From assembly GCF_029338175.1 (NCBI RefSeq), contig NZ_CP119862.1:3752839-3816838 (forward strand): a stretch of 64,000 nt of DNA, in the 5' to 3' direction. The notes below the pieces were generated by a model. It was not told the DNA's origin, made no database searches, and saw nothing but the letters and a program-made list of their open reading frames with translations. This DNA comes from Citrobacter enshiensis (GTDB lineage: Bacteria > Pseudomonadota > Gammaproteobacteria > Enterobacterales > Enterobacteriaceae). Of this stretch, positions 11,761-50,817 are shown piece after piece (position 1 is the stretch's first letter; each line of letters opens with the position of its first letter). The position numbers and the translations under genes are program-made.

Positions 11761-11764
11761 TGCG

Positions 11765-12910: not shown

Positions 12911-12920
12911 TTGATCCACC

Positions 12921-14111
12921 TTACATCTTTGCATCAAGGGACTTACCGGTTTCCTGATGACCAAAATCGGGTACCACCTCAAAGAAAAGGGAAACGAGGT
13001 CGTCCTTGCTCCATTGACGATTTGCTCTCATCGCATGAATTTTTTGCTCAAATATTTCCAGCAATTCTGACGGGTATATGGCCGCATTTTTAATCACGCC
13101 GATATTGTTGAATCGCGCCATATCCAGAATTTCTTTTTCCGTGAAGAACTCTTCAACCTCTTTTTCGCCTGTCGTATCGCTGGTGGTGAACAGGCAGGGC
13201 CAACGCCCCTGCTCCGGCAATGTCTTTGCAAGCTCGCGCGCCTCATTTTCATCCCGACAGAGATACGGCTCATATCCCCGCTGTTTGAGGTATTTGGCGG
13301 CGATCTCAGCAAAGGTGATGAGATGCTGTTCTTCGCGCAATTTAGGGAAGAAAATGTCTCTGTTTTCACCGAAAATGCATGACATCAAACACAGTTCACC
13401 GGCTTCCTGCGGTGTCACGAAATAACGTTTTATATCGTTCGGGGCCACTATCGGTTGATGCTTCTGCAGCCTCTGATTAAAACCGTGAAGCAGGGAACCA
13501 TCTGAGAACGCCACATTGGCAAAGCGCGCGGTAGAGATAGCGATTTGCTCACTTCTGCGCATCAGGAACATCTCCATAATTCGCTTGGAAGCGCCCATCA
13601 TATTGACGGGGTTGGCCGCCTTATCGGTGGACACACAGAAGTATTTTTTAACGCCTGCCGCAATCGACTGTCGAAGCGTCTTGTCAGTATTGAAGACGTT
13701 GACGTCGATCATTCTCATCAAGGTATATGGATCTTTTTCACTGCGTACGTGCTTGAGTGCAGACAAATTAAGAACATAGTCATACTGGCCATCTGCCTCG
13801 ATAAACGCGTCATACTCGAGAGAACCGATATCCAGGGCAAAGGTCTGAAAATCCCCTTCGATATAGCCCAGTGAACTGCGGATATCACGAACGAGTTCGA
13901 CGATGTTGTTTTCACTAATATCAACAACATGCAGTTTTTTTGGCTGACGTTTGAAAATCTCCCGGGTGACGGCCTGACCGATAGAGCCTGCGCCCCCTAA
14001 AACAAGAAAGCGGGACTGGGAAACGCGTTGATTCAGCGCTGATCCAACATCGCCTATGTCATCAACAAACAAGGCGTCGGTTCGCCCAATGAGGGGAAGT
14101 ATTGAAAGCAT
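12921..14111 (-). CDS. legB: Nucleotide-sugar 4,6-dehydratase, LegB-like
   Basis: A 396-residue SDR-superfamily enzyme related to FlaA1/PseB/CapD. The NAD loop is GGAGSIGQ; STDKAANPVN and MGASKR follow, with Met in the place of the usual catalytic Tyr, as in the PseB/CapD group. It should make the 4-keto-6-deoxy intermediate for LegC. Start ATG 14111 has AGGA 8 bases upstream. First enzyme of the sugar pathway in gene order. Confidence 0.86.
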   Translation of the reverse strand: MLSILPLIGRTDALFVDDIGDVGSALNQRVSQSRFLVLGGAGSIGQAVTREIFKRQPKKLHVVDISENNIVELVRDIRSSLGYIEGDFQTFALDIGSLEYDAFIEADGQYDYVLNLSALKHVRSEKDPYTLMRMIDVNVFNTDKTLRQSIAAGVKKYFCVSTDKAANPVNMMGASKRIMEMFLMRRSEQIAISTARFANVAFSDGSLLHGFNQRLQKHQPIVAPNDIKRYFVTPQEAGELCLMSCIFGENRDIFFPKLREEQHLITFAEIAAKYLKQRGYEPYLCRDENEARELAKTLPEQGRWPCLFTTSDTTGEKEVEEFFTEKEILDMARFNNIGVIKNAAIYPSELLEIFEQKIHAMRANRQWSKDDLVSLFFEVVPDFGHQETGKSLDAKM

Positions 14112-14174
14112 GGTGATTCCTGGCAAAAATTGTAATGTGTTTATCTCAACAGCCCACATCCCGTTCCGGGCAGC

Positions 14175-14471
14175 TTATTTACGGATCTCAATGACCCGGC
14201 CCGCGTCATCCTGACGTTGCCTGATGCTGGTTTTCTCTGTATCGCCTTCACGCAACCACCCCAAAGCGCCGTTTTCAGTCACATCGTCCAGCACACCGCA
14301 GCGGATAGTCTCTGTGCCGTTCTGCAACTCAGCACCTTCGGAATAGCGTTTACCGTCGAAGTAACAGGCACGTTCGCTCAGGCTGTCGGTATTAATGTTG
14401 AATTCAGTCCGGTTCGCCACAGCCTGTGCGGACAGCAGCGATAACAGCGTGAACATCAGGCGCGTTCTCAT
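14175..14471 (-). CDS. Small exported protein, DUF1496/YnjH-like
   Basis: A 98-residue protein with a signal peptide ending at SAQAVA. A short cysteine-bracketed core (ACYFDGKRYSEGAELQNG, then IRC) resembles the DUF1496/YnjH family, of unknown function. It sits between the sialyltransferase and the dehydratase in the same operon, which is unusual for this family. ATG 14471 is preferred over a GTG at 14483 because GAGG lies 7 bases upstream. Confidence 0.72.
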   Translation of the reverse strand: MRTRLMFTLLSLLSAQAVANRTEFNINTDSLSERACYFDGKRYSEGAELQNGTETIRCGVLDDVTENGALGWLREGDTEKTSIRQRQDDAGRVIEIRK

Positions 14472-14484
14472 CGATTTCCTCACT

Positions 14485-16164
14485 TCACATTAGAATCACA
14501 TATTTCTTCTGGGCATTAAGGATCCCCAGAATCATGTGCTGCTGAGTGCCCTGACTGCCCACGGGGCTATACTCCGTCCAGTGATAACCCCAGGTATGCA
14601 GGTCTTCCCGCCCCGTAGGCACGGCGAAGCAGTCGAAACGGAAGTCCGCCTCTTTGATTGCTGCGAGGGTAAATGCCTGCAGATCTTTGCGTGTTACCGT
14701 GTTCATGTGCTCGCACACCGCGGTAAAGTCCGGGCTCGTCTCATTGATAGCCAGGATGCACGGGAACCCCATCCGAATCAGATTGTCCAGGCTCTTCTCC
14801 AGGGCGATGAACTCATTCGGGTGGCTGATATAAAAACCCAGCACCAACGTCTTTTGCGGAAACGTCAGACCCGATCCCCGCTGGATATCGCTCATTGTCC
14901 TCATCCCCGCTAAAGACTGGCTGGTGTATTTATCCCAATACGGATAAGGGATTTCACCACGTCGATAGAGTTCGCTATAGAGCACAATCTGCCGTTCTTC
15001 CACGATACCCAGCAGCAGCGCCAGTCGTTGCAGGGGCCACTGACGCAACGCCACCTCGCGCGGCACGTTTTTCTCAGGCGGCGCGAGAATGAAGGGGATC
15101 TGCTCCTTGCTCAGGCTAAGATGGGTGCTGGACATAAAGCCGCAGATGCCCCGAAAAGGGGTCTTGAGCATTAGCAGCAATTCCATCGGCATAGATGCCG
15201 GCAGGGGAATCAGCCGGGGATATTGGCGAACAATATGGTCATTTACGATGTACCCCGCCGGATGACCCTTAAAGAGCAAAACAGGCTTGCCGCTAATATG
15301 AAGGGGGGAACCCGACTTGCGGATATGCTTGAGTAAATCGTGATGGAGTCGGATGATCCCGCGCGCCGCCAGGCCTTGTGCGTCCTGAACGTTTTGCGAC
15401 GTTCCCAGCACGATGATCGCCTCCTCGCACCCGACCAGCAGACGCTCCAGAGATGCCCTGTCAACCCCAACGGCGCGGAACAACCATGCCTGCTGATGGG
15501 GGGCCAGCAAATCAAAATCCCCCCAGTCGGTCCGCTCCATATGGGAGAGCAGTTCGTCGGCCAGCGATTTTAAGGCGGGCAAGCGGGTCATAATGTCAGG
15601 TCGTACCATGTGGTAGCGGGTAGGATAGAACCGGTGCCACCCCTGCCCCACGATTATCTTGTCCTGTCCGGGACCACTAAAGCCGACGCTACGAGGAGAT
15701 TCATAGAGATAGCTCTCGAGACGAGACAGTATCGCTTCCCTTTGTGTCAGCCGCTCCGGTTCATCGCTTAACTTGAGCAACTCACAGTAGTCGAATGTTC
15801 CATCTTCATAGAGATGCAGCATCCGCACCGGATATTTGAGAAAGTGCAGCGCATTAAGCAGCGGTGCCAGCGCATCCGAGCTATAGATAAGATTGGAGTG
15901 AATCTCAACCTCGATGCGCCCATGCTGCTCGCACAGCGCAATCAATCGCTCGTAAACCCCAATGACAGGGGCGATGCCCTGCTTAAAATGCTGATGGCGC
16001 GGGTGCAGCTGTTCGCCATCCTGCAAGGTCGAACGTCCCCAGGTGGTGAGGGACGTTGTGTGCTCTTCTTCGCTATGACGGCAAAAATGGAGCAACTGTT
16101 GCAACATGGGCATCGTAAAGGGATCAAGGTAGATCCGCACCAGATGGGGGAGAGGCTGAGTCAT
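14485..16164 (-). CDS. GT80-family sialyl/nonulosonyl-transferase with C-terminal extension
   Basis: A 559-residue protein whose first ~400 residues follow the GT80 multifunctional sialyltransferases of Pasteurella and Photobacterium. Shared landmarks in order are IYLDPFTMPML (11-21), the catalytic-base motif LYEDG (Asp121), WGDFDLLAPHQQA (214-226), the CMP-binding FKGHPAG (His301), Glu328, and MSSTHLSLSKEQI (Ser345-346). Residues ~405-559 have no counterpart I recognise. No signal peptide is seen, so it should act in the cytosol on a CMP-nonulosonate. It is the first gene of the operon, behind a sigma54 promoter, and divergent from the flagellin. ATG 16164; ribosome site weak. Confidence 0.82.
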   Translation of the reverse strand: MTQPLPHLVRIYLDPFTMPMLQQLLHFCRHSEEEHTTSLTTWGRSTLQDGEQLHPRHQHFKQGIAPVIGVYERLIALCEQHGRIEVEIHSNLIYSSDALAPLLNALHFLKYPVRMLHLYEDGTFDYCELLKLSDEPERLTQREAILSRLESYLYESPRSVGFSGPGQDKIIVGQGWHRFYPTRYHMVRPDIMTRLPALKSLADELLSHMERTDWGDFDLLAPHQQAWLFRAVGVDRASLERLLVGCEEAIIVLGTSQNVQDAQGLAARGIIRLHHDLLKHIRKSGSPLHISGKPVLLFKGHPAGYIVNDHIVRQYPRLIPLPASMPMELLLMLKTPFRGICGFMSSTHLSLSKEQIPFILAPPEKNVPREVALRQWPLQRLALLLGIVEERQIVLYSELYRRGEIPYPYWDKYTSQSLAGMRTMSDIQRGSGLTFPQKTLVLGFYISHPNEFIALEKSLDNLIRMGFPCILAINETSPDFTAVCEHMNTVTRKDLQAFTLAAIKEADFRFDCFAVPTGREDLHTWGYHWTEYSPVGSQGTQQHMILGILNAQKKYVILM

Positions 16165-16216
16165 CAAACTTTTCTCTGTCTTCGCTGACGTTCACGGCAT
16201 TATTGTCTGGTAAAAA

Positions 16217-35425: not shown

Positions 35426-36706
35426 ATGTCTGACGCATGCCTGACCCAACATCTCGCCATCATCGCCAGCCGCTGGCCCGTGCTGGCCACAATACTTAGC
35501 CAGACGCCGCCACTGTCCTCGGCAAGCATAATGGAAGGGCATTGCGGAACCCTGCTGGTCGACGGCATCCAACTGACCAGTCGCCATGACCGGATAAGCG
35601 AAGCGCAGCAGCAGGCGAATAGCCTGCCCGTAAAGCCGCATCTCAACGTCTATGGCACTGGGCTTGGCTGTCTGCCGCGCATCCTGCTGCAACGACCCAC
35701 GTTGACACAACTCAATGTCTTCATCATGAACCGCGCGCTGTTCCTGCTGACCCTGACGCTGCTGGAAAACGAGGACTGGCTGCAAGATCCGAGAGTCTGC
35801 CTGGCATTGGCCGCCGACGAAGATGAGATTCGCCTGCCCTTCTTTGCCTTGCCTGCCGAGCTACGCCTGGCGGAAGACGCGGCAAGCGGAATACGTGACC
35901 GCCTGATCAGGGAAATTTCACTTCCCCATACCAATCGTCGTTACGAGCAACATCTCCCTGCGCTGCGACAACGGCTTGCCGACAACCGTCGCCTGCTCAA
36001 GCGGGACGGTGATGTGGCCTCGCTCTTCGCCAGCGCCACGGGCCGCCAGGCGTTAGTTATCGGCGCAGGCCCCACGCTGAAGTCGCATCTGCCCCGCTTA
36101 CAGGCACTGCAATGCCAGCCGGAACGACCGCTGCTGATTGCCGTCGACACCGCCTGCCGCGCCCTGTTTGCGCACGGCATCCAGCCGGACTGGGTGGTCT
36201 CCATCGACCACCTGATTGATGAAGAGAAACTTCCGCCCGCTGACTGCGGGCTGGTGTACTTCCCGCTGGTCCCCACCAAAACGTTAATGGCCTGGCGCGG
36301 AAAACGGCTGGCAGCCTGGTCCAGCAGCCCACTTTATCAACCGCTGCGTAAAGCGCTGCCAAAGGCGCTGCTCTATTCGGGAGGAAGCGTCATTCATCCC
36401 GCCGTCGATCTCGCGGTGCAGATGGGCTGTCGGGACGTTATCCTGCTGGGGGCAGACTTTGCCTTTCCTGGCGGAGAAACCCATACGGGCTGGGCAGTTG
36501 GTGCCCTGAACACTACGCTCGAGCAGGCAAAACACTGGGTGCTGAATGGGCATGATCAGCGCATCCGTACCAACATCAGCTTTACCGGCTATCGTATTCA
36601 GCTTGAACGCTATATTGCCGCGCACCCCGAGGTTTGCTTCTGGAACGGCAGTCGGGAAGGCGCCAGGATTGCGGATTGCCGTTATCATCCGGAGTTCACC
36701 TCATGA
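35426..36706 (+). CDS. maf: Maf-family (DUF115) flagellin glycosylation protein
   Basis: A 426-residue motility accessory factor. The central MptE-like domain shows VIGAGPTLKSHLPRL (residues ~210-225), DWVVSIDH, YSGGSVIHPAVDLA and LLGADFAFPGGETHTG. In Aeromonas and Campylobacter, Maf proteins are needed to put nonulosonic acids on flagellin before export. Here it is the natural candidate to act with the CMP-legionaminate made at 7.1-14.1 kb. AGAGAG ribosome site; stop overlaps the next gene. Confidence 0.88.
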   Translation: MSDACLTQHLAIIASRWPVLATILSQTPPLSSASIMEGHCGTLLVDGIQLTSRHDRISEAQQQANSLPVKPHLNVYGTGLGCLPRILLQRPTLTQLNVFIMNRALFLLTLTLLENEDWLQDPRVCLALAADEDEIRLPFFALPAELRLAEDAASGIRDRLIREISLPHTNRRYEQHLPALRQRLADNRRLLKRDGDVASLFASATGRQALVIGAGPTLKSHLPRLQALQCQPERPLLIAVDTACRALFAHGIQPDWVVSIDHLIDEEKLPPADCGLVYFPLVPTKTLMAWRGKRLAAWSSSPLYQPLRKALPKALLYSGGSVIHPAVDLAVQMGCRDVILLGADFAFPGGETHTGWAVGALNTTLEQAKHWVLNGHDQRIRTNISFTGYRIQLERYIAAHPEVCFWNGSREGARIADCRYHPEFTS

Positions 36707-38262: not shown

Positions 38263-39597
38263 ATGATCTTGCTGCTTGAATCAGATAAAGTGTGCGCAGA
38301 CGAAATTCTCACTCATCTCAGTGAAGAATATGCTCGTCGCGTAGTCTGGCAGCCAGGTTTGCTGGATATAGCCTCTCTAAGCACCACTATCCCGAGCCTG
38401 GTCATTCTGGGCCGGGGTCTGTCTCAGGTGCAGGCCCTTAGCTATATTCGCCAGTTGCATACGTTACCTATCCTGTTGATTAGCCCAATGGATCAAGCCG
38501 AATGGGCCAGCACGGCCTTAGGCAACGGCGTCAGTGATTATTTGCTCTATCCCTTTAGTCTCCAGCAACTGAATCAACAGATAACCAGCCTGCTCAATGC
38601 AAACTCGCTGCAGACCCGCGGCATGATCATGAGTTCGCCGACCTCCCGCCGTCTGTTGATGATGGCGCATCGGGTTGCTCTGGCCGAAGCGCCTGTGCTC
38701 ATCAGAGGCGAAACGGGGACGGGCAAGGAGATGTTGGCCCAATTTATCCACACTAACTCCAGCCGGAAAGAAGGCCCCTTTGTGGCCGTCAACTGCGCCG
38801 CGATTCCCGAGAACATGCTGGAAGCCATCCTGTTTGGTTACGTTAAAGGGGCGTTCACCGGCGCTTACACCGGACAAGCCGGTAAGTTTGAACTGGCCAA
38901 CAACGGCACCCTCTTTCTGGATGAGATTGCAGAGATGCCTCCCCCTCTGCAGGCGAAGCTGCTGCGCGTGTTGCAGGAGTGGGAAGTCGAACGACTGGGA
39001 AGCAACAAGGTCATTCCACTCAATGTCCGACTCATCACGGCCACCAATCAGAATCTGCGGGAAGCGGTGAGTCAGGGGCGTTTTCGCGAGGACCTTCTCT
39101 ATCGTCTGGATATTTTGCCGCTCGTCATTCCTCCCCTGCGCCAGCGCCGGGAAGAACTGGACCGATTGATCGCTCACTTCGTGCAAAAACACGGGGATCA
39201 GGCGTTTGCTCACGCCATTAAATTAAGCCCGTGCGCGCAGAAAGCCTTATTAGCGCACAACTGGCCCGGCAATATTCGGGAACTGGAGAACCGCGTACAG
39301 CGTGCGCTGGTGATGTGCCGCAGCACGGTGCTGCTCGCGGCTGATTTCGATTTACCGTCTGTTCCACCTACGCAGGAAATTATTGTTGCCGCCCCACAAA
39401 CTCAGGTTGAACTGACCCCTTCGGCCTCCCTACAGGAGAGCCGCAAACACGGTGAGTTCCAACACATTTTAGACACGCTACGCCATTGCCGCGGACACCG
39501 GAGTATGACCGCCAAAGCCCTTGGCATTACCCCCAGAGCTCTGCGCTACAAACTCGCCGAGATGCGGCAAAGAGGCATCATCACTGATGATGCGTAA
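38263..39597 (+). CDS. lafK: Sigma54-dependent lateral flagellar activator
   Basis: A 444-residue NtrC-type activator. The N-terminal receiver-like domain (1-110) lacks the phosphoacceptor Asp; ILGR stands in its place near residue 50. The AAA+ domain has Walker A GETGTGKE (149-156) and the sigma54-contact loop GAFTGA (196-201). The C-terminal HTH ends the protein. It should be master regulator of the lateral system. The ribosome site is poor and direct repeats abut the start, hinting at tight control. Confidence 0.92.
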   Translation: MILLLESDKVCADEILTHLSEEYARRVVWQPGLLDIASLSTTIPSLVILGRGLSQVQALSYIRQLHTLPILLISPMDQAEWASTALGNGVSDYLLYPFSLQQLNQQITSLLNANSLQTRGMIMSSPTSRRLLMMAHRVALAEAPVLIRGETGTGKEMLAQFIHTNSSRKEGPFVAVNCAAIPENMLEAILFGYVKGAFTGAYTGQAGKFELANNGTLFLDEIAEMPPPLQAKLLRVLQEWEVERLGSNKVIPLNVRLITATNQNLREAVSQGRFREDLLYRLDILPLVIPPLRQRREELDRLIAHFVQKHGDQAFAHAIKLSPCAQKALLAHNWPGNIRELENRVQRALVMCRSTVLLAADFDLPSVPPTQEIIVAAPQTQVELTPSASLQESRKHGEFQHILDTLRHCRGHRSMTAKALGITPRALRYKLAEMRQRGIITDDA

Positions 39598-39623: not shown

Positions 39624-39953
39624 ATGAACACGATTAATGACTCACAGCAGGCAATGATGCAGCGGATGACAACGATGCAAACGGCTGCCCAGCAACCGCT
39701 GTTTGCCTCCCAACAGCAAAACAACACGCAAAACACCTCCTTCGAGAGTGTCTTTCATGCGGCCCTGAATGGGGTGGACAGCCACCAGCAAAACGCAGCC
39801 AACCTGGCGACGCAAATCGAAACGGGTGCCAGCGACGACCTGACTGGCGCGATGATCGCCAGTCAGAAAGCCAGTCTCAGTTTTTCGGCCCTTACCCAGG
39901 TCCGCAACAAACTGATGACGGCCTATGACGAAGTCATGAAGATGCCTTTGTAA
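39624..39953 (+). CDS. fliE: MS-ring/rod adaptor FliE
   Basis: A 109-residue FliE homologue with FESVFHAALNGVDSHQQNA and the C-terminal SALTQVRNKLMTAYDEVM block. It joins MS ring and rod. Starts 26 bases after lafK. Confidence 0.92.
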   Translation: MNTINDSQQAMMQRMTTMQTAAQQPLFASQQQNNTQNTSFESVFHAALNGVDSHQQNAANLATQIETGASDDLTGAMIASQKASLSFSALTQVRNKLMTAYDEVMKMPL

Positions 39954-39977
39954 GGCCGGGGAAGTAGCGAGTAACGA

Positions 39978-41651
39978 ATGAGGCAAAAATTCAAAACGAT
40001 TTGGGACAATATCAGCAAGCCGCTGCCCGCAATCACCCTATTACGGAATAAAGTACCCCAGCTCATGCTATTGGGCATGTTGACCTGTCTGATAGCAGTA
40101 CTCGTCGTACTGTTTCTCTGGTCTTCCCAGGGGAATTACCGGCCCCTCTATGGTCAGCAGGAGCGCTTCGACAGTGCTCAAATCATGGCCATCCTCGATC
40201 AGGAACACATTGCTTATCGTCTGTTGGATACGACAGGACAGGTGTTGGTTGAAGAAGATAAATTATCGCAGGCGCGAATGTTGCTGGCGGCAAAAGGCGT
40301 ACAGGCCAAACTGCCGGTAGGACTGGAATCGCTGGAGAAAGAGTCAACCCTGGGCACCAGTCAGTTCGTTGAAAATGCCCGTTACCGTCGTGGGTTAGAG
40401 GGAGAGCTGGCGCGCACCATCATGAGCATGCAGGGGATTGATTTTGCCAGGGTCCATCTGGCTATCCCGGACAAAATGATCTTCCTGCGTGGCAATGAGG
40501 AGAAACCGTCGGCCTCCGTGATGCTTGAGCTTTCCGCTGCAAACTCCCGGATGGAGCCAGGGCAAGTGCTGGCTATCGTGAACCTGGTCAAAGGCAGCGT
40601 CTCCAATCTCACCACCGAAAACATCTCTGTCGTCGATCAGTATGGTCATCTGCTGACACAGGATCTCAACGATGAACTTTCCGGAACCCGGTTGACCAGC
40701 CATCAACTCGACTATCAGAAGCAAGTTGAGCGCAGTTATGAACGTCGCGTCAGCGAGATGCTGCAACCCGTGCTCGGTGCCAACAATTACAAGGTGCAGG
40801 TCACGGCACACCTGATCTTCGACAACGTGGAAGAGACCCGGGAATCCCTCGACAAGAGTCCTGTCGTACGCGAAGAACGTCTGCAAAAAGACGCCTCGCA
40901 GGGAGGCCAGTTGAGCGGGATCCCCGGCGCCCTGAGCAACCGTCCGCCGGTCACAGACCCACAGCAACAGGGCAATCAGGCACAAACGCCACCCGCCACG
41001 GCTGAGCGTCTGATTAATGAGAAAGATGAGCAGCAGCGTCGCTATGATGTGGGACGCACCATCACCCACACCAAATACCAGCAGGGGCGTCTGAATAATC
41101 TCAGTGTCTCCGTGGTACTGAATCAGACCGTGTCACCGGAAAAAGGCTGGAGCGCTGAGCAACTGACCAATATCCGGCAGATGGCGCTGGATGCGGTGGG
41201 CTTCGATCAGACGCGTGGCGACCAGCTCAGCCTGAATGTGTTTCCTTTCTCGGAAGATGGCATCAATCCTGCACTGGATAGCCAATGGTGGCAGGAGCCG
41301 GTTTTGCTGATCTACGCCCGTTATCTGGTCGCCACCATTCTCGGTCTGTGTCTCATATTCTTTGTGATCCGCAAGTTGATGCAGCACCTGATCCAACGCT
41401 CCCCGGCGAATGGCAGCGATAACGCAGAGAACGCCTCTGCCACACAAGTGACGTCCGACAAGAGAGAAAGCGAAGAGAGCGAATATTTCAGAAAACACAA
41501 CCGCAATCTGGCGTTTGATAAAGTTCGCCTGAATGAACTTCCAGACACGAATTCGCCTTTGCGGGATAAATTGGCCCACTTGCAGTTGCTGGCGGACCAC
41601 GACCCCAAACGCGTCGCCGAAGTATTAGAACAGTGGATGAATAGCAGGTGA
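39978..41651 (+). CDS. fliF: MS-ring protein FliF
   Basis: A 557-residue protein with two membrane helices (about 35-50 and 445-465) and the conserved periplasmic ring-building motifs (EGELARTIMSMQGI, ARVHLAIP). The C-terminal tail binds FliG. It nucleates the basal body. Confidence 0.95.
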   Translation: MRQKFKTIWDNISKPLPAITLLRNKVPQLMLLGMLTCLIAVLVVLFLWSSQGNYRPLYGQQERFDSAQIMAILDQEHIAYRLLDTTGQVLVEEDKLSQARMLLAAKGVQAKLPVGLESLEKESTLGTSQFVENARYRRGLEGELARTIMSMQGIDFARVHLAIPDKMIFLRGNEEKPSASVMLELSAANSRMEPGQVLAIVNLVKGSVSNLTTENISVVDQYGHLLTQDLNDELSGTRLTSHQLDYQKQVERSYERRVSEMLQPVLGANNYKVQVTAHLIFDNVEETRESLDKSPVVREERLQKDASQGGQLSGIPGALSNRPPVTDPQQQGNQAQTPPATAERLINEKDEQQRRYDVGRTITHTKYQQGRLNNLSVSVVLNQTVSPEKGWSAEQLTNIRQMALDAVGFDQTRGDQLSLNVFPFSEDGINPALDSQWWQEPVLLIYARYLVATILGLCLIFFVIRKLMQHLIQRSPANGSDNAENASATQVTSDKRESEESEYFRKHNRNLAFDKVRLNELPDTNSPLRDKLAHLQLLADHDPKRVAEVLEQWMNSR

Positions 41652-41660
41652 TTACCCGCC

Positions 41661-42695
41661 ATGAATGAAGAGTACGAGCAACAACCGCTCAAAAGTGCCG
41701 AACAGGCAGGTCTACTGCTGTTAACACTGAGCGAGCACCAGGCTGGCAACATTCTGCGCAGCCTGAGTCGGGAACATGTACAGGATATCGTCCGGGCCAT
41801 GGCAGAAGTCGGCCATGTCAAGAATCAGCACCTGGACATGGCTTTGCAGAGGATGTTCATCGACTATCGCGAACTTAGCGGCATCTCTCGTGCCTCCCGT
41901 GGCTTTCTTGAGAGAACGCTCGATGTCGCCCTTGGGCCAGAACTGGCCAAAGGGGTGATCAACGACGTTTACGGAGAACAGATTCGGGAGACCATGCATC
42001 AGTTGCAGTGGATCTCCCCCAGCCTGATCGCCGCCAATCTGCAGCATGAAATGCTGCCGTTGCAGGCAACCTTCCTCGCGTTGCTGCCGCAGGACGTCTC
42101 TGCCGAGGTGATGAAGCACCTGCCGCAAGCGCAGCACGACAGACTGATTCTGAACATGGCGAATTTGCGGGAAATTAACCAAAACATGGTGGCGGAGCTG
42201 GAGAAAATCATTCAGCAGTGCCTGACCATGGTCCAGCAAGGCGTTCAAACGTCGGTGAGCGGTGTCGAACAAGCGGCGGGCCTGATTTCCCGTTACCCAG
42301 GTAACAGCGCCAAATTGCTTGAGACCGTGCGCGAACATGACCAGGGACTGGCTGAAGAAATTGAGAACAGCATGTATCGCTTCTCCATTCTTGAGCGCCA
42401 GCCTGAGGCCACTATCGTCAGACTCTGCCAGGAAGTGGAGCCAGAGGTGTGGGCCAGAGCCTTCAAAGGGGCGTCGCCGTCCCTGCGTCAGGCCATACTG
42501 CGCTGCCTGCCGAAACGCCAGGCCAATGCAATTCAGGAACAGATGCAGGTCATGGGCGGCCTCCCCGCCAGCGTGGTCAGAGGTGCGGAAGCGGAGATCA
42601 TGGCTAAAGTGCGTGAGCTCATCGCAGACAATGAAAATGCAGAAGGCGGCGAGCCTTTCGAGTTTCGCCTCTTTGAAGAGAAGGTGTTGGAGTAA
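41661..42695 (+). CDS. fliG: Rotor switch protein FliG
   Basis: A 344-residue switch protein. The N-terminal FliF-binding domain, the middle domain and the C-terminal torque helices (FKGASPSLRQAILRCLPKRQ) are present. Torque is generated against LafT. The sequence is divergent from primary-system FliG but complete. Confidence 0.9.
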   Translation: MNEEYEQQPLKSAEQAGLLLLTLSEHQAGNILRSLSREHVQDIVRAMAEVGHVKNQHLDMALQRMFIDYRELSGISRASRGFLERTLDVALGPELAKGVINDVYGEQIRETMHQLQWISPSLIAANLQHEMLPLQATFLALLPQDVSAEVMKHLPQAQHDRLILNMANLREINQNMVAELEKIIQQCLTMVQQGVQTSVSGVEQAAGLISRYPGNSAKLLETVREHDQGLAEEIENSMYRFSILERQPEATIVRLCQEVEPEVWARAFKGASPSLRQAILRCLPKRQANAIQEQMQVMGGLPASVVRGAEAEIMAKVRELIADNENAEGGEPFEFRLFEEKVLE

Positions 42696-42698
42696 CCC

Positions 42699-43565
42699 AT
42701 GTCACAGCCTGGCAAAAAAGACGGACCCCCACGCAGTGTCCATCGCTACCATTTTCCACCGCTATCCCAGCAGGAGCCCCTGCCGGAGGAGCAACCTTAT
42801 GCCTCCCCACAACAGATCGCGGCCAAATATCAGGCCCTGATGGAAGAGGGTCGCGATGCCGGTTTTGCGCAAGGGCTGCGCCAGGGGCTGGAGCAAGGCC
42901 ATCCTCTGGGCCAGGAGCGTGGATTTCAGGTGGGCATGCAGGAAGGGCGAGAAGCCGGGAGCCAGCAAGCTTACGAAGAGAGCAAACCTAAACTGGATGA
43001 CGCGTTTCATCAGGTCGGCCAGCTCTATGATTCCCTTGAGGCCACACTGCAAGAGACGCTGACCGGGCAAAGGGAAACCCTCTGTCGCCTGATTTCACAG
43101 ATCTGCCGACAGGTACTGCGCGCCGAACTCGCGCTCAATCCGACGCAGATCCTTGGGCTTATCGAAGAGACCCTGGCGATGTTACCGAAGCCGCAGGGCG
43201 CGATTTCCATCCGCCTGGATCCAGGCACCCACACGCTGCTCAAGGCATGTGCGCCGGACGCACTGAAACACTGGGATCTGCAATCCGATCCCCTGCTTTC
43301 CGCCGGTAGCTTCCATATTCAGACGGGGCTTGCTGAAGCGGAAAGCCAACTGGATGCACGCATCGATCTGTGTGTCGATCAGTTGCGTCGTCAGTTGGTC
43401 GATACCCCAGAGCTGAACGCGTTAGAGGCGCCCGCCATCACCGCGAAAAGCCCGACGATATCCTCCACAATCACGCCGCATAACTTGCCCTGGCGCCAGG
43501 AAGAGACCTTCTCTTCCCTTTCGCTGCCCGCAGACAAGTTCAGCGACGAAGACTTAAAAGCTTAA
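42699..43565 (+). CDS. fliH: Export ATPase regulator FliH
   Basis: A 288-residue protein with the glycine-rich helical repeat region typical of FliH (GFAQGLRQGLEQGHPLGQE, about 50-75) and the C-terminal FliI-binding domain. GGAG precedes its ATG. Confidence 0.9.
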   Translation: MSQPGKKDGPPRSVHRYHFPPLSQQEPLPEEQPYASPQQIAAKYQALMEEGRDAGFAQGLRQGLEQGHPLGQERGFQVGMQEGREAGSQQAYEESKPKLDDAFHQVGQLYDSLEATLQETLTGQRETLCRLISQICRQVLRAELALNPTQILGLIEETLAMLPKPQGAISIRLDPGTHTLLKACAPDALKHWDLQSDPLLSAGSFHIQTGLAEAESQLDARIDLCVDQLRRQLVDTPELNALEAPAITAKSPTISSTITPHNLPWRQEETFSSLSLPADKFSDEDLKA

Positions 43566-43569
43566 CCCC

Positions 43570-44901
43570 ATGCGCGCCCTGAAAACGTTGCTTAATCAAC
43601 TTGAAAAGGACGAGTATCGGGTGCCTCCCGCCCGGATTTACGGGCGGCTGGTGCGCGTCACGGGCCTGCTGCTGGAGGTGACAGGGTGCCCCCTTTCTAT
43701 TGGGCAACGCGCACTCGTTGAAACCAGCAATAGCACCTGGATCGAGAGCGAAGTGGTGGGTTTTAATCAGGATCGCACCTTTCTGATGCCCGTCGAGCAA
43801 GTTACCGGCCTGTTCCCTGGCGCCCGCGTCTCACCACTGCAAGAAGACAGCGAACTGGTGGTCGGGCCCGCGCTGCTCGGCCGCATCCTGGATGGTCTGG
43901 GTCGCCCTCTGGACGGTCTCGGCCCTCTGACGGGAGAACGCATTTCTTTGCATCAACCGCCGCTGAATCCGCTCGCACGCCAGCCCATCACCACCCCTCT
44001 GGATGTCGGCGTGAAGGCCATCAACGGCATATTGCCGCTGGGTCGCGGCCAACGAATCGGACTGTTTGCGGGCAGCGGCGTGGGCAAGAGCGTGCTGCTC
44101 AGCATGATGACCCGTTATACCGATGCTGACGTGGTGGTGGTCGGTCTGATCGGGGAGCGCGGACGCGAAGTTGCCGAATTCCTGCAACATACGCTCGGGG
44201 AAGCGGGACGCCGTAAGGCGGTTGTCGTGGTCGCCCCTGCCGACGTTTCTCCCTTGCTCAGACTCAGAGCCTCCCAGGTCTGTCACCGGATTGCCGAAAG
44301 CTTTCGCGATCAGGGCAAGCACGTGCTGCTGCTGATGGACTCCCTGACCCGTTATGCCATCGCCCAGCGCGAAATCGCCCTGTCGTTGGGTGAACCGCCA
44401 GCCACCAAAGGATATCCCCCTTCTGTCTTCACCCAGTTGCCGCAACTGGTGGAACGGGCAGGCAATGGCTATCACCCGGAAGGTAGCCTCAGCGCCATCT
44501 ACACCGTGTTGGTCGAAGGGGATGACCACAACGATCCGATCGCGGACGCCGCGCGGGCGATCCTCGACGGTCACATTGTCCTGCGCCGTGATATCGCCGA
44601 ACAGGGGATTTATCCGGCCATTGATGTCGCCGCATCGGCCAGTCGCGTCATTCCGTTAATCTGCGCCACCGCCCAGGTTCAGCAAATCCAACGGTTTCGC
44701 CGCTATTACAGCCTGTATCAACAGGTGCGCGAACTGATCCCGCTGGGCGGCTATCAGGCCGGTCACGACGAGGAAATGGACAAAGCCGTGACCCTGTTCC
44801 CGCAGATGCTGGAGTATTTACAGCAGCCTGCCCAAGAGGGGGTAAACCTGCAACAGACCCAGACGTTGCTACAGGCGCTAATGGAGGAAGATAAACGATG
44901 A
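43570..44901 (+). CDS. fliI: Flagellar export ATPase FliI
   Basis: A 443-residue F1-type ATPase. Walker A GLFAGSGVGKSV and Walker B LLLMDSLTRY are intact. It powers the flagellar type III export apparatus with FliH and FliJ. Overlaps fliJ by ATGA. Confidence 0.95.
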   Translation: MRALKTLLNQLEKDEYRVPPARIYGRLVRVTGLLLEVTGCPLSIGQRALVETSNSTWIESEVVGFNQDRTFLMPVEQVTGLFPGARVSPLQEDSELVVGPALLGRILDGLGRPLDGLGPLTGERISLHQPPLNPLARQPITTPLDVGVKAINGILPLGRGQRIGLFAGSGVGKSVLLSMMTRYTDADVVVVGLIGERGREVAEFLQHTLGEAGRRKAVVVVAPADVSPLLRLRASQVCHRIAESFRDQGKHVLLLMDSLTRYAIAQREIALSLGEPPATKGYPPSVFTQLPQLVERAGNGYHPEGSLSAIYTVLVEGDDHNDPIADAARAILDGHIVLRRDIAEQGIYPAIDVAASASRVIPLICATAQVQQIQRFRRYYSLYQQVRELIPLGGYQAGHDEEMDKAVTLFPQMLEYLQQPAQEGVNLQQTQTLLQALMEEDKR

Positions 44902-45326
44902 AATCCTTGAATACATTGCACCGCCTGCAAAGCCACAAGCTGGACAATGAGAGCAAAGCGCTGACGACGCTGGAGACGCGCAACGTCGAACTCCAGCGTT
45001 CCCTCGACGTCCTCGGGCAGTATCGCCGCGAGATGTCGCGACTGCCCACCTACGGCTCGGCCTTTGCCCTGCATAACCGCAACATCATGCACCGCCAGTT
45101 GGGCGACCTCATTGATAAGCAGCACGAAGAAAAAGTCGCGCTCAAGCTCTCCATCGCGCAACAGAAGAAAGTCGTGCTGGATGCCTTCGTCGCCAGAAAA
45201 AGCAGCGAGATAATCCTCGAACGACAGCGGGTCCGGCAGTCCTTTGAAACGCAAAGGCAAGAACAAAAGATCCTGGATGAGCTGGCGCTCAACCAGGTGC
45301 GGCTCGCAGCGCGGGATAAGCGCTAA
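44898..45326 (+). CDS. fliJ: Export stalk protein FliJ
   Basis: A 142-residue highly charged coiled-coil protein in the fliI-fliJ position, with long helices throughout. It couples FliI to FlhA. Confidence 0.88.
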   Translation: MKSLNTLHRLQSHKLDNESKALTTLETRNVELQRSLDVLGQYRREMSRLPTYGSAFALHNRNIMHRQLGDLIDKQHEEKVALKLSIAQQKKVVLDAFVARKSSEIILERQRVRQSFETQRQEQKILDELALNQVRLAARDKR

Positions 45327-45375: not shown

Positions 45376-46419
45376 ATGCGTAAGCCACTTAAGATCGCCA
45401 TCGATGACGGTTCGACCAACGTCAAGGTCAGCTGGATAGCCAACAAAACCCTGAAAAGCATCATCTCGCCCAACTCATTTCGCAAAGACTGGAAGAGTGC
45501 TGCCCTGCTCAAAGGCAAGATGGTCTACAACTACGAAATCGGGATCAACAAATACACCTACGATCCGACGTCAGAGAAGTCCCTCTCCACCACCCACATC
45601 GACTATCAGTATGGCGATCTCAACCTGCTGGCGGTGCATCACGCCCTGCTACAGACCGGTCTTCCTCCCTGTAATGTCGCGATCACCGTGACGCTGCCCA
45701 TTACCGAGTACTATCAGCAAGATGACTGTCAGCGTAACGAAGCGAACATTGAGCGCAAAAAGCAGAACCTGATGCGTCCCATCAGTCTGAATAAAGGGGA
45801 GCTGTTCAGCATCGTCAGCGTTGATGTGATGCCCGAAAGCCTGCCCGCCATCCTTACCCGACTGGTGAATTCAGGGGTCAACCCGTACACCAAAACGCTG
45901 GTTATCGACTGTGGCGGAACGACCCTGGATATGGGGCTGATCGTTGGTGAATTTGACGAAGTTTCCGAGGTCTACGGCAACCGCGCGCTCGGTGTCTCCC
46001 TGATCACGGATGCCGCCCGCACCGCGCTGGCCGCCGCCGACAGCGACTCCAGCTATCTGGTGGCAAACGAACTGATCAAGCACCGCCACGATGATGTTTT
46101 TGTGCGTGAAGTGATCAACGATGAGTCGCAGATCCCCCGAATTCTGGAGAAACTTGAGCGAAAAATTGAGGAGTTGGGGCACTTCGTTGCAGAAGAGGCG
46201 AAAAAGTTTGCCCGTAACCCCAACAGGGTCTATCTGGTCGGCGGCGGCGCAAATCTGATCTACCCCACCATTCAGGCCAGTTATCCTACCCTGGGCAAAC
46301 GCGTGATCCTGGTCGAAGAGTCCCAATTCGCGCTCTCTCGCGAAATCTGCCTCTACATCAGCGATGAAGATAAAGTGTTCAGCGAAACGCCGGTCGAGTC
46401 AGAGGCAAGCAATGACTAA
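45376..46419 (+). CDS. ParM/StbA-type bacterial actin
   Basis: A 347-residue actin-fold ATPase closely patterned on ParM of plasmid R1. Phosphate-1 loop IDDGSTNVK (9-17), VTLPITEYY (105-113), phosphate-2 loop DCGGTTLD (178-185, with the catalytic Asp position kept) and adenosine motif GGGANLI (289-295) are all intact, so filament formation and ATP hydrolysis should be possible. Plasmid ParM pushes DNA apart with ParR. Here it lies 49 bases after fliJ and overlaps a ParR-like gene. Its role in a flagellar operon is unknown to me. ATG 45376; weak ribosome site. Confidence 0.9.
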   Translation: MRKPLKIAIDDGSTNVKVSWIANKTLKSIISPNSFRKDWKSAALLKGKMVYNYEIGINKYTYDPTSEKSLSTTHIDYQYGDLNLLAVHHALLQTGLPPCNVAITVTLPITEYYQQDDCQRNEANIERKKQNLMRPISLNKGELFSIVSVDVMPESLPAILTRLVNSGVNPYTKTLVIDCGGTTLDMGLIVGEFDEVSEVYGNRALGVSLITDAARTALAAADSDSSYLVANELIKHRHDDVFVREVINDESQIPRILEKLERKIEELGHFVAEEAKKFARNPNRVYLVGGGANLIYPTIQASYPTLGKRVILVEESQFALSREICLYISDEDKVFSETPVESEASND

Positions 46420-47071
46420 TTCAGTCAGAGAAGTCCAGGTAACCCTCACGCTGGATCCACAGCAGGCGAGTGATAATCTGGCGCTGGCGACATTACAGCG
46501 CTGGTATCAGCGCGCTGAAATCCTGAACAAAGAGACGGACAATTTTGATTTCTTCAGTCTGCCGTTGCACAAAGACATCTATCTCTCAGGGTTGCTGCTG
46601 TGCCTGCTTGACCCCAATCTGGTCAAATTTCTCTCCCGAAATCTGCAAGTTAACAATCTGAACAGCGAGTTTCTCCAGCACAGTCTGGAGGAGCACCGGC
46701 TCATCGCCGGTCGCGAGGCGTCAACGGCGGAACCGTCCGGACAGTTGACGCCGGACGAGCTGGCCACCCAGATTGCCGATAAGCTCAACCCGTTGCTCAG
46801 CGCGCTGGGTAAAGCGACGGGTCAACGTAAGCTGCGAGATGCGTTGCAAGCCAGCGTCGATATGCTGGCGCAGCAGTTGCAGGAACAAAACGGGCTTTTA
46901 CAACAGCAGGCACACCTCCTCGACAAACTGACGCATGTGGGTGGGCAAGTTCAGTCAGCCCCGGCACCGGGTCATTCCCCGGCTCCCCAGGTTTCCGGAG
47001 AGGTCCAGCGGCATGATCTTTCGGAAACGGCAGCCAAAGTGCGCAAAGTCAGGGCCAAAGGCATCTTCTGA
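46412..47071 (+). CDS. ParR-like adaptor protein
   Basis: A 219-residue protein. The N-terminus (VQVTLTLDPQQASDN, then KDIYLSGLLLCLLDPNL) follows the ParR pattern of a beta strand and helices of a ribbon-helix-helix DNA-binding dimer. A predicted coiled coil spans about 145-175, a Pro-rich linker 180-195, and a basic tail ends KVRKVRAKGIF. ParR uses its C-terminal tail to grip the ParM filament end. It is about twice the length of R1 ParR. It overlaps the ParM-like gene by 8 bases, with AGAGG as ribosome site. Homology is weaker than for the actin. Confidence 0.7.
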   Translation: MTNSVREVQVTLTLDPQQASDNLALATLQRWYQRAEILNKETDNFDFFSLPLHKDIYLSGLLLCLLDPNLVKFLSRNLQVNNLNSEFLQHSLEEHRLIAGREASTAEPSGQLTPDELATQIADKLNPLLSALGKATGQRKLRDALQASVDMLAQQLQEQNGLLQQQAHLLDKLTHVGGQVQSAPAPGHSPAPQVSGEVQRHDLSETAAKVRKVRAKGIF

Positions 47072-47579: not shown

Positions 47580-48764
47580 TCAGGGCAACTTCGTTTCCGG
47601 TGTGGCGGGGTTCTCCGTCTTCACCCGATTCCACTGACTCAGTGGCTCAATGCTGGCACGCCAACCGAGAGACGTCGTCTGCGGCAACGCCGCTTTCTTC
47701 GCCCCCTCATCCTGGGTGCTCTTTTTGTCGTTCGCCGGACGCGCTGAATAGAGATCCGCCGCCCCCGGCGTTCTCTGCCACAGCCCAACGCCCCATCCCA
47801 GGGTTTCCAGATCCTTGTCGGGGAGCGCTCGCCGCTTTGCAATCTGGGGAGGCGCTTTCTCTTGCAACTGGGGGAGATTGTCACTGCGCGCCCCCAGCAC
47901 CTGACGCGCCCGTTTACCCCATCCCGCTGGCAGCAACAGGGCAATGCGGCTGCCCCGGGGCGCTACCGCATTTTCCAGCCCCGCATTGTAAAAACCCAGT
48001 TCTTCCGTGCTGCGCCCGAGTTTTCTGGCCAGCCAGGCCAGACTGACGCCATCTTCAACAGGCAGAGCGACCAGACGGGACGCCTCGGGTACTGCGGGCA
48101 ACTGAAGATGACCGGTCCGGTATAAGCGCACCAACGCCAGTAACCTGGGCACATACTGTCTGGTCTCGTTTGGCAAAGAGAGGGACCAAAAATCGGTCTG
48201 TCTGCCCTTCGCTTTGTTTTGCTCGATAGCATTCTGAACCGTCCCTTCCCCGGCATTGTATGCAGCCAGTGCCAGTAACCAGTCACGTCCGAACAAGTTA
48301 TACAGATAACTCAGATAATTGAGCGCTCCACGGGTGGAGGAGATCAAATCCTTGCGCCCGTCGTACCAGTCATAGCGGATCACACCATACTGCTTCGCCG
48401 TTTTGGGCATCAACTGCCAGGGGCCGACCGCCCCCGCAGGCGATTCGGCATACGGGTCGTAGCCGCTCTCGACAAGCGGCACAAACAGCAGTTCCAGCGG
48501 CAATTTGCGCCGCTGGAGTTGGGTGACGATGAAGCGGATGGAGGGGGCTGAGCGCGTCATCAGCCCCTGGATCCTGACCGCTTCTTTGCGATAAAGACCC
48601 TCATATAACGCCACGTTCGGGTGACGCGACTGCCAGTTCATGGCCTTCCCTTCCCCCTGTTGGGGAGTGACGTCCTGCGACATGAGCGGGGCTGACAGGG
48701 TCAACAGCCCCCCGGCCAGCATCGCCTTAACCCAGGATCCCTTTGACTTCAATGTGGAGTTCAT
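47580..48764 (-). CDS. MltD-like lytic transglycosylase
   Basis: A 394-residue exported protein. Signal-like N-terminus (AMLAGGLLTLSAPLMS), then an SLT/GH23 domain with catalytic Glu99 in VESGYDP, GAVGPWQLMP and AAYNAGEG. A LysM-like segment (VEDGVSLAWLARKLGRS) and a disordered tail follow. It cuts peptidoglycan. Its start overlaps the 3' end of flhA, so it is expressed with the export genes; with FlgJ lacking its muramidase domain it is the likely hydrolase for rod passage. GAGG precedes ATG 48764. Confidence 0.85.
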   Translation of the reverse strand: MNSTLKSKGSWVKAMLAGGLLTLSAPLMSQDVTPQQGEGKAMNWQSRHPNVALYEGLYRKEAVRIQGLMTRSAPSIRFIVTQLQRRKLPLELLFVPLVESGYDPYAESPAGAVGPWQLMPKTAKQYGVIRYDWYDGRKDLISSTRGALNYLSYLYNLFGRDWLLALAAYNAGEGTVQNAIEQNKAKGRQTDFWSLSLPNETRQYVPRLLALVRLYRTGHLQLPAVPEASRLVALPVEDGVSLAWLARKLGRSTEELGFYNAGLENAVAPRGSRIALLLPAGWGKRARQVLGARSDNLPQLQEKAPPQIAKRRALPDKDLETLGWGVGLWQRTPGAADLYSARPANDKKSTQDEGAKKAALPQTTSLGWRASIEPLSQWNRVKTENPATPETKLP

Positions 48765-50817
48765 CGGGAACCTCGTTAAATGACAGAACGTGCAGCCCTT
48801 TGGCAAAGGTGCGGGCATAACGGGCGAGCAGAGGACGTAATTGTGGTAGCACCAGCAAGATTGGCGACCACCCCTGCAACGACATCTGCTCCTTCACACT
48901 GGGCATACGGTTTTGCAACTGCGCCAGTAACTGAGGCTCGATGGGGAAGCTGTCAGCCGGTACGCCGCCGTTGCGTTGCGCCTGCGTCGCGGCATTGAGC
49001 AGAATGTTCTCCAGCTCGTCAGAAAGGGTGAAGACTTGTACCGTCGTCGTCGTCCCGATCAACCCGTGCAGGATCGTGTGGCGCAGGGCGCAGCGAACTT
49101 CCGCCGCCAGTAACATCGGGTCTTTGGTGATTTCGGCCCCATCCACCATGCTCTGAGCGATCGTCCGCACGTCCATCAGGGAAACCTGATCGGTCAATAA
49201 ATTGCGGTAGACCTTCAACTGCTGGTTTGCCGTCAACTTAGCAGTAAGATCCTCGGCCAGTTTGGGGGCCATCTGACTGAGCCTCTGCTGTAGATGGTGC
49301 ACATCGTCAAGCTGCAACAGGACGCCGATATTGCTACGGATTACCTTACTGATGTGAGTACCAATGATGGTCGCCACATCGACGACGGAATAACCTAAGT
49401 TGAGCGCTCTGGCTTTGTCGGCAGGCAGGATCCAGACCGCATCCATGCCATAAACCGGCTCCTTGGCCAGATAGCCAGGGATCTCCCCCAATAACTCCCC
49501 CGAGTTGATCGCCAGCAGTCTGTCCAGCATGACGTCCGCCACGGCGACCTTGACCCCGTTAAGGTAGATAGCGTACTGGTTTGGTTTGAGCCCCATGTTG
49601 TCCCTGACCCGGACTTCGGGCAGCAGAAAACCGGCTTGTTCGGAAAGCGTCTGGCGCACACCGCGCAGGCGTTGCAGTAATTCAGCCCCCTTGTCCCTGT
49701 CGACGAGGTAGATCAGTTGATAACCCAACTCCAGCCTGAGCAAATCGGTATACGGGATGTCCCCCCACCCCAGCTCATTCTCGATGGGGCGGGTAAAGCG
49801 CTCCATCTGCTCCTGATCGGCAGGTGCGACTTTTTCTGCTTTTTGTTTTCGACTGCGCCAGGCGGCATAACCCAGGATACCGGCAAACAGCAGGAAGACC
49901 AGGGTCGGCATTCCCGGCACCAGCCCCATCACCAGCATAACGGCGGCTGCGGTCATGATAACCGGTGGAGAAGCCAGCAACTGATCCCGGAACTGGACGG
50001 TGATATCTTCGTCAGAATCTGAGACGCGGGTGACCACGATGGCCGCAGACACAGCCAGCATCAGCGAAGGAATCTGCGCCACCAGACCGTCACCGATGGA
50101 GAGCAGGCTATAGACGCTCATGGCCTCAGAGAAGCTAAGCCCATGCTGAAAGACCCCGATGGCAACCCCACCGAAGAGGTTGATAAACAGGATCAGAAGA
50201 CCGGCGATCGCATCCCCTTTGACAAACTTGGAGGCACCGTCCATCGAACCATAGAAGTCGGCTTCCCGGGCTATCTCGTCCCGTCGCTCCTTGGCCTGGC
50301 GCTGATCGATCATCCCGGCATTCAGGTCGGCATCGATAGCCATCTGCTTACCGGGTAACGCGTCGAGGGTGAAGCGGGCAGCGACTTCCGAGATACGCTC
50401 GCTGCCCTTGGTGATGACAATAAAGTTAATGATCATCAGGATGAAGAACACCACCATCCCCACCACATAGTTGCCGCCAATCACCACCTTACCGAACGAC
50501 TCGACGACCTTACCGGCGGCATCGGGAGACTCATGACCAAACTGCAGCACCACGCGGGTTGATGCCACGTTCAGACACAGACGCAGCAACGTGGCAATCA
50601 GCAATACGGTCGGGAAGATCGAGAAGTCGAGTGGCCGCCGGACAGACAGGGCAACCAGCAGCACGATGATGGAGAGCACGATGTTGAAGGTGAAAAAACC
50701 ATCCAGCAAAAACGCGGGCAATGGCAGCACGATCATCGCCAGCAGCGACAGGATAAGCAAAGGTATCGCAATAAAACTGCGCGAAGTACCGGAAAAAAGA
50801 GTGGTCAAACGTTTCAC
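48727..50817 (-). CDS. flhA: Export gate protein FlhA
   Basis: A 696-residue export-gate protein with about eight N-terminal membrane helices and a large cytoplasmic domain. The conserved DALPGKQMAIDADLNAG block lies between helices. GTG start at 50817. Ten bases after flhB. Confidence 0.95.
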   Translation of the reverse strand: MKRLTTLFSGTSRSFIAIPLLILSLLAMIVLPLPAFLLDGFFTFNIVLSIIVLLVALSVRRPLDFSIFPTVLLIATLLRLCLNVASTRVVLQFGHESPDAAGKVVESFGKVVIGGNYVVGMVVFFILMIINFIVITKGSERISEVAARFTLDALPGKQMAIDADLNAGMIDQRQAKERRDEIAREADFYGSMDGASKFVKGDAIAGLLILFINLFGGVAIGVFQHGLSFSEAMSVYSLLSIGDGLVAQIPSLMLAVSAAIVVTRVSDSDEDITVQFRDQLLASPPVIMTAAAVMLVMGLVPGMPTLVFLLFAGILGYAAWRSRKQKAEKVAPADQEQMERFTRPIENELGWGDIPYTDLLRLELGYQLIYLVDRDKGAELLQRLRGVRQTLSEQAGFLLPEVRVRDNMGLKPNQYAIYLNGVKVAVADVMLDRLLAINSGELLGEIPGYLAKEPVYGMDAVWILPADKARALNLGYSVVDVATIIGTHISKVIRSNIGVLLQLDDVHHLQQRLSQMAPKLAEDLTAKLTANQQLKVYRNLLTDQVSLMDVRTIAQSMVDGAEITKDPMLLAAEVRCALRHTILHGLIGTTTTVQVFTLSDELENILLNAATQAQRNGGVPADSFPIEPQLLAQLQNRMPSVKEQMSLQGWSPILLVLPQLRPLLARYARTFAKGLHVLSFNEVPDELHIEVKGILG

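Follow-up and report, generated by a model that had tools for sequence, protein, structure and literature searches.

The closest described relatives of the system considered here are the type II partition loci (ParMRC) of plasmids R1 and pB171. We investigated a gene pair encoding a ParM-type actin and a ParR-like adaptor, termed ParR' below, in a stretch of 64,000 nucleotides from Citrobacter enshiensis (contig NZ_CP119862.1, positions 3,752,839 to 3,816,838), which we call the window and always mean at its full length. The pair shares with plasmid ParMRC the homology of ParM, the fold of ParR, the adjacent parM-parR order and a basic, hydrophobic C-terminal tail. In contrast to the plasmid loci, it belongs to a separate ParM clade linked to lateral flagella; its adaptor family spans 171-352 residues with a long helix, against about 130 residues for the ParR of plasmid-type loci; and the adjacent repeat array of plasmid ParMRC is not seen beside the window pair and most of its relatives. 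Because of its genomic placement, its co-occurrence with lateral flagella, their joint absence in Aeromonas and a shared promoter, the pair very probably belongs to the lateral (secondary) flagellar system. The same evidence strongly supports the proposal of an original prediction, made from the window alone, that the pair is dedicated to the lateral flagellum.

Several other systems bear on this comparison. Little is understood about the positioning of numerous lateral flagella and their passage to daughter cells, whereas devices are known for polar flagella: the FlhF/FlhG and ParC/ParP-type systems position polar flagella and chemosensory arrays. These likewise control the position of a flagellum or array, but they are signal recognition particle-type GTPases or ParA/MinD-type ATPases, not actins. 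Lateral flagellar systems are known in Aeromonas and Vibrio as well as in enterobacteria. The magnetosome protein MamK, to our knowledge, represents a different actin family with a different cargo and has no ParR-type adaptor. As an actin-like filament it nonetheless offers, as described in a passage of PMC5059902, an earlier example of a bacterial actin serving to segregate an organelle and not DNA. The pair lies within, or shares promoters and distribution with, the Flag-2/lateral systems of the Enterobacterales (PMC6993521) and the lateral systems of Aeromonas and Vibrio. The main text of the surveys of enterobacterial flag-2 and flag-3/4/5 loci (PMC6993521, PMC7526173) contains no mention of ParM, StbA, actin or partition, and no report joining ParM or StbA to lateral flagella was listed in searches of open-licence papers, which is no proof of its absence in print. 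In the matching passages of PMC4471891, PMC10845958 and PMC10562556, ParM is the name of an author.

The ParM actin and its ParR-family partner

The two genes of the pair are as follows.

45376-46419, plus strand: parM-like actin gene; product of 347 amino acids (Pfam StbA_N 7.2e-60, ParM C-terminal domain 4.8e-38)
46412-47071, plus strand: parR-like adaptor gene (ParR'); product of 219 amino acids with an N-terminal ParR fold, a long helix and a C-terminal tail

By its sequence, the first product is assigned to the ParM (StbA) actin family: both ParM domains are detected by Pfam, and the plasmid R1 ParM in the PDB matches it over nearly the full length (E = 2.8e-69). The motifs DDGSTN, D-x-GGTT-x-D and GGG, which we take to play their usual roles in the nucleotide site, are invariant in 12 of 12 aligned clade members and align to R1 ParM. 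The expectation of a ParM-type actin between fliJ and fliO was thus borne out.

The closest named relatives, in Citrobacter sp. R56 and Awk 4, are 99% identical to the window ParM. The clade as a whole is set off by a gap in identity, its members having at least 62% identity to the window protein and the next ParMs at most 55%; we label the latter plasmid-type, though some of them lie on chromosome-size contigs (for example, in G002). Intact clade members were found in 19 of 392 genomes sampled by family and 23 of 394 sampled by order; the two samples share three genomes, and G404, with pieces of parM only, was left out of these counts. A scan of named genomes gave 112 relatives, of which the best 80, all with at least 65% identity, are the named loci discussed below. 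The genera represented include Citrobacter, Buttiauxella, Pluralibacter, Enterobacter, Lelliottia, Kluyvera, Pantoea, Aeromonas, Photobacterium, Vibrio, Enterovibrio, Shewanella and Ferrimonas. Three of the 80 named relatives (L111, L139, L173) are on records titled chromosome, the others being on contigs whose replicon is not stated. Plasmid records yielded, among the matches listed, a single one above 60%, on a 2.1 Mb Photobacterium replicon that also carries ParR'. The window is itself part of a single 4.9 Mb contig, and neither a plasmid nor another extrachromosomal element carries its pair.

A tree of 65 ParM sequences (46 of the 80 named relatives, the window, L002, L103 and L104, making 50 clade rows, and 15 plasmid-type rows) places the window and the 49 other clade rows on one side of a branch with support 98/95 and all plasmid-type rows on the other; long-branch warnings apply among the plasmid-type rows. 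A strain-specific insertion is ruled out by the recurrence of the pair in many genera, and the alternative that its relatives are only plasmid-borne is ruled out by this branch together with the short, different ParR at seven plasmid-type loci. Hence neither of the two genomic findings that would have told against the original prediction, a pair restricted to this strain or relatives that are all plasmid-borne without a flagellar link, was obtained. As the pair is intact and recurs far beyond the window strain, it is no chance pattern.

Two side observations concern the distribution of this ParM. The ParM of A. diversa (L150), Aeromonas sp. RU39B (L154) and A. simiae (L172) stands on another branch than that of the remaining Aeromonas, beside the enterobacterial group, and was likely transferred horizontally. 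Separately, CRISPR-associated transposons of Shewanella use genes of the ParM/StbA family as attachment sites, according to a passage of PMC12452197 that makes no flagellar link; such use fits a conserved parM in Shewanella.

Searches of Pfam, NCBIfam, PHROGs and the PDB with the window ParR' alone gave no significant hit. At the level of the family, PF10784 (Plasmid_stab_B) is detected with E <= 0.1 in 28 of the 56 members aligned, the lowest value being 6.7e-13; the window protein itself is unmatched. The family profile matches ParR of pB171 (2jd3) with E = 1.4e-4. An AlphaFold model of residues 1-100 of the window protein (predicted local distance difference test, pLDDT, 86) superimposes on 2jd3 with Z 9.2 and a root-mean-square deviation (rmsd) of 1.9 Å over 81 residues, and Foldseek pairs the two with probability 1.00 (E = 0.027). 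The whole-length model (pLDDT 72; predicted template modelling score 0.32) shows a long helix spanning residues 138-181 and, close to the C-terminus, a short one; it matches 2jd3 weakly (Z 4.2, rmsd 6.7, 81 aligned) and has no significant Foldseek match, the clear match being made by the N-domain alone. Profile and model together place the second open reading frame (ORF) in the ParR family.

The C-terminal end fits the pattern [KR]-x-[KR]-G-[ILV]-[FW] in all 79 named relatives and resembles the ends of plasmid-type ParR in character. Their median length is 242 residues, as against 123-134 for the ParR of seven plasmid-type loci; a short ParR cluster is carried by 7 of the 9 plasmid-type loci examined. 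Many ParR' members have an N-terminal strand with polar alternate residues. The two genes overlap by 8 bases in the window and in 60 of 79 named relatives. The description of the second gene as ParR-like, overlapping parM by 8 bases and ending in a basic tail is therefore upheld by the family matches, the fold of the N-domain and the tail pattern.

Association with lateral flagella

Lateral systems were recognized with the window FlhA as query, lateral-type proteins scoring at least 789 bits and the rest at most 752; a lafK-like gene stood beside the high-scoring FlhA in all seven loci fetched. By this measure 67 of the 392 genomes in the family sample and 50 of the 394 in the order sample have a lateral-type FlhA. 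It was found in 19 of 19 and 21 of 23 genomes with a clade ParM, respectively. In the two remaining genomes, G496 and G612, FlhA scores 752 and 747 bits, and the pair nevertheless lies inside a divergent flagellar locus. Conversely, in the family sample the clade is carried by 19 of the 67 genomes with lateral FlhA and by none of the 325 without it. The order sample gives 21 of 50 versus 0 of 342 when G496 and G612 are left out, or 2 of 344 when they are counted against the association. The corresponding Fisher p values, which kinship among the genomes makes too small, are 2e-16 and 2e-21, the latter becoming 4e-19 with G496 and G612 counted against. A lateral-type FlhA is also present in all 40 genomes whose named locus lacks flagellar neighbours (termed stand-alone below), in 39 of them at full length and at least 833 bits; the sole exception, Vibrio mexicanus (L163), has a 388-residue fragment with one stop, decay or a contig end being the candidate causes. 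Presence of the pair is thus confined to genomes with a lateral flagellar system. As a separate observation, parM is broken into several pieces in G404 (L085), which has no lateral-type FlhA, and its congener G183 has both intact.

In Aeromonas, 12 of the 21 genomes listed with an FlhA match have both the pair and lateral FlhA, none has one only and 9 have neither; the distances between the pair and lateral flhA in two single-contig genomes are 1.95 and 1.96 Mb. A gyrB tree requires 7 changes of the joint state, and independent pairs of genomes are concordant in 5 of 5 cases on well-supported branches (p = 0.0625) and in 7 of 7 when every branch is used (p = 0.016). Of the 9 genomes that lack the pair, 8 have a clean empty site, with 77-145 bases between the flanking hydrolase and moeB-like genes; in the ninth the locus is cut off. 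We read this pattern as repeated joint loss, a direction that the tree counts alone do not tell from gain.

The placement of the pair supplies a further line of evidence. At least three flagellar genes lie within 8 kb at 40 of the 80 named loci (embedded copies), and none of the genes sought does at the other 40, the stand-alone copies. The window copy is of the embedded kind, its relevant neighbours being:

38263-39597, plus strand: sigma-54 activator of the lafK type, first in the fliEFGHIJ-parM-parR' run (Pfam Sigma54_activat 3.2e-68), which we take to be lafK from its position
39624-44901, plus strand: fliE, fliF, fliG, fliH and fliI (FliF and FliI by Pfam and NCBIfam, the others by gene order and reading)
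44898-45326, plus strand: fliJ, the 5' neighbour of parM (Pfam FliJ 5.1e-9)
47137 (alternative start 47191)-47568, plus strand: fliO, the 3' neighbour of parR' (Pfam FliO 8.9e-16)
48727-50817, minus strand: lateral-type flhA, the marker of the lateral system (NCBIfam FlhA 1.3e-232)

The whole locus comprises fliC to motB in the left third of the window, flg genes, the lafK-type activator, fliEFGHIJ and, on the minus strand, flhA to fliM, several of these names resting on gene order and the reading of ORFs. Since the genome has a second FlhA match, this flagellar system is supernumerary.

The order fliJ-parM-parR'-fliO, whose conservation the original prediction had put forward for testing, recurs in a Pluralibacter metagenome-assembled genome (MAG) and in Buttiauxella agrestis, but it is only one of several arrangements. 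In many Enterobacteriaceae the order is motB, an NlpC/P60 endopeptidase gene (L011:10773-11630, Pfam 5e-32; related ORFs occur at 9 loci), parM and parR'. The pair follows a run from flagellin to motB in Photobacterium and Enterovibrio, adjoins an flhB-fliN run in two Vibrio, lies between lafK and a fliN/fliP-flhA run in a Ferrimonas MAG (G087), and comes after fliI in G612 and G496. The earliest branches of the ParM tree after the root, G612/G496 and then the Ferrimonas MAG (88/83), are flagellar-locus copies, and the tree needs at least 5 changes between embedded and stand-alone placement. Chance placement in flagellar loci is ruled out by the lateral systems of the stand-alone genomes, and in the five single-contig genomes checked the pair lies 0.5-2 Mb from lateral flhA.

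Stand-alone copies have a further tie to the lateral system, in their promoters. By eye, parM of Aeromonas, Shewanella and Ferrimonas has the same upstream -35/-10 pattern as lateral flagellins. A promoter model was built from 15 flagellin upstream sites (17 were collected, and two Aeromonas sites without the -35 half were dropped), in 2 of which the -10 half is misplaced (spacing 9). It scores at least 10 bits at 22 of 40 stand-alone and 2 of 40 embedded loci; among the control ORFs of these loci, 14 of 432 reach that score. The stand-alone loci are related within genera, so that these counts are not fully independent. Sorted by hand, the 22 comprise 10 loci of Aeromonas, 7 of Shewanella and 5 of Ferrimonas. 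We suggest that the stand-alone parM promoter is of the lateral sigma-28 type, a label transferred from the flagellin promoters.

Some of these leaders have additional features. In three Aeromonas loci (L117, L118, L123) the parM leader contains a long inverted repeat with arms of about 17 bases and an RNA fold z of -3.4 to -4.2, a candidate operator or RNA element. The Ferrimonas leaders L183, L185 and L189 have a short, attenuator-like hairpin and T run straight after the promoter-like site; the folds of L183 and L189 are not clearly above those of shuffled sequences (z -1.4 and -0.8).

Proposed cargo of the filaments and competing explanations

We give about even credence to the proposal that ParR'-capped ParM filaments move or space a component of the lateral flagellum, that is, a protein cargo. 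Dimers of ParR' would bind the growing end of a ParM filament via the conserved basic tail, as plasmid ParR does, and the N-domain and long helix would bind a lateral-flagellum component instead of a plasmid centromere. Candidate cargoes are the basal body, an export or motor part, or a chemosensory array of the lateral system. Filament growth would push the cargo apart along the cell body, and lateral flagella would thereby be spread over long surface-grown cells and to both daughters. A plasmid-type actin would in that case have been domesticated into the lateral flagellar apparatus, with ParR'-capped filaments distributing or segregating flagellar machines, a history for which we regard the balance of probability as level. 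The indirect evidence that makes a flagellar part the likelier cargo than DNA is the absence of iterons, the enlargement of ParR' and the repeated entry of the pair into basal-body and motor gene runs.

The absence of iterons rests on counts of 8-mers against shuffles in the 400 bases up- and downstream, a test that would miss degenerate or distant sites. The window shows no repeat excess by this test (z 0.48 upstream, 0.54 downstream). Among the relatives, z reaches at least 5 upstream at 7 of 80 loci (median 0.25) and downstream at 3 of 79, as against 5 of 9 plasmid-type loci upstream. Next to the window parMR, therefore, no iteron array of the parC kind was detected, a distant or degenerate parC being possible, and the 49-base gap between fliJ and parM leaves little space for one. 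Given the missing adjacent repeats in the window and most relatives, we do not classify the pair among the ParMRC partition cassettes. As side observations, the upstream repeats of L185 look like a local tandem repeat, and L128 has a strong short-repeat excess downstream beside the pair.

Several findings weigh against a flagellar role or a flagellar cargo. Of the genomes with lateral FlhA, 48 of 67 (family sample) and 29 of 50 (order sample) are without the clade. The pair is therefore accessory, and lateral flagella in general can do without it. A quick-method FlhA tree covers 61 rows, made up of 54 of the 67 family-sample genomes with lateral FlhA, the window among them, and 7 others. Only certain lineages of this tree have the pair, which is wholly missing from one large enterobacterial clade of lateral FlhA (21 rows). 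The promoter model stays below 10 bits at 18 of 40 stand-alone loci (7 Aeromonas, 1 Aeromonadaceae MAG, 3 Enterobacterales, 4 Photobacterium/Vibrio, 1 Shewanella and 2 Ferrimonas), and in 2 of the 22 passing loci (L126, L182) the best-scoring placement differs from the site found by eye. A late, flagellin-like promoter suits the placement of basal bodies less well than a motor, filament or chemosensory cargo; a role that follows or accompanies the assembly of basal bodies fits such a promoter as well as a role in placing them. Repeat excess does occur beside ten relatives (upstream at L117, L141, L145, L176, L179, L183 and L185, downstream at L128, L131 and L132). Finally, the N-domain keeps the DNA-binding fold of ParR, and DNA may still be the cargo.

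The last point leads to the explanation that survives best after flagellar cargo, namely that the pair still segregates DNA, for instance nucleoids in long surface-grown cells, from a parC-like site elsewhere on the chromosome. The ParR fold and the polar alternate residues of the N-terminal strand in many members, the retained nucleotide motifs of ParM and the repeats beside a minority of relatives all agree with it. Against these stand the scarcity of adjacent repeats and the narrow fliJ-parM gap, and an extra assumption is demanded by the lateral-flagellin-like promoters and the joint absence with lateral flagella; we consider this explanation unlikely. Even with DNA as cargo, a chromosomal ParMR expressed with lateral flagella would apparently be new, and is testable. 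Less probable in our judgment is that ParM filaments act in elongation or division control of swarmer cells during surface growth with lateral flagella and leave the flagella untouched. Such a function would be expected to give identical co-regulation and joint absence, but in the ParM tree several branches, separate from one another, have the pair inside basal-body or motor runs, and this points to a link with the apparatus.

A regulatory function, in which ParR' would bind DNA to repress or activate lateral genes and would be titrated or sensed by ParM, appears similarly doubtful, if not slightly more so. Plasmid ParR proteins autoregulate their own operons, and the inverted repeats upstream of parM in the Aeromonas and Ferrimonas leaders could be accommodated, but a dedicated actin with nucleotide motifs and a filament-binding type of tail exceeds the needs of a repressor, and no operator-like repeat common to the families was seen, no dedicated operator search having been made. 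Very improbable is hitchhiking, in which a captured plasmid partition cassette persists through insertion in, or stabilization of, flagellar loci: more distant ParMs do occur on thousands of plasmids (the closest at 55% among the matches listed, the 2.1 Mb Photobacterium replicon excepted), and Flag-2 loci are known to gather cargo genes according to a passage of PMC6993521, but the clade is set apart by a branch of the ParM tree and possesses a long ParR' of its own, and the pair lies far from lateral flhA in the five single-contig genomes. The original prediction also suggested that the pair may have been captured from a plasmid and retained to maintain the locus; this is likewise disfavoured, half of the 80 named pairs being away from flagellar genes in genomes that still have the lateral system.

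If flagellar cargo is correct, ParM filaments, the textbook motor of plasmid segregation, have been re-used for a protein machine, and no bacterial actin before this one is known to us to have a cargo related to the flagellum. Found with lateral flagella in several families, such a cytomotive actin would be a concrete, deletable candidate for their placement and inheritance, and the naturally divergent ParR' offers a means to study how an adaptor chooses its cargo.

Other features of the window

The lateral FlhA of the window is only 55-59% identical to other Enterobacteriaceae copies, three close relatives excepted, and branches apart from them in the quick FlhA tree; from this identity and separate branch, the lateral locus may have been acquired from outside the family.

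Genes at 7146-16167 resemble, by reading of their ORFs, those for nonulosonic (sialic-acid-like) sugar synthesis; the run is closed by a PM0188-type sialyltransferase (Pfam 1.4e-33) immediately before the flagellin gene, and probably serves flagellin glycosylation. An MptE-like protein (35426-36706, Pfam 1.5e-30) encoded within the flagellar locus is possibly a flagellin-modification (Maf-like) factor. Convergent to fliO lies a gene for an SLT lytic transglycosylase (47580-48818, Pfam 5.2e-27), which probably opens the cell wall for the flagellum; its frame, as called, shares 92 bases with the end of that of flhA.

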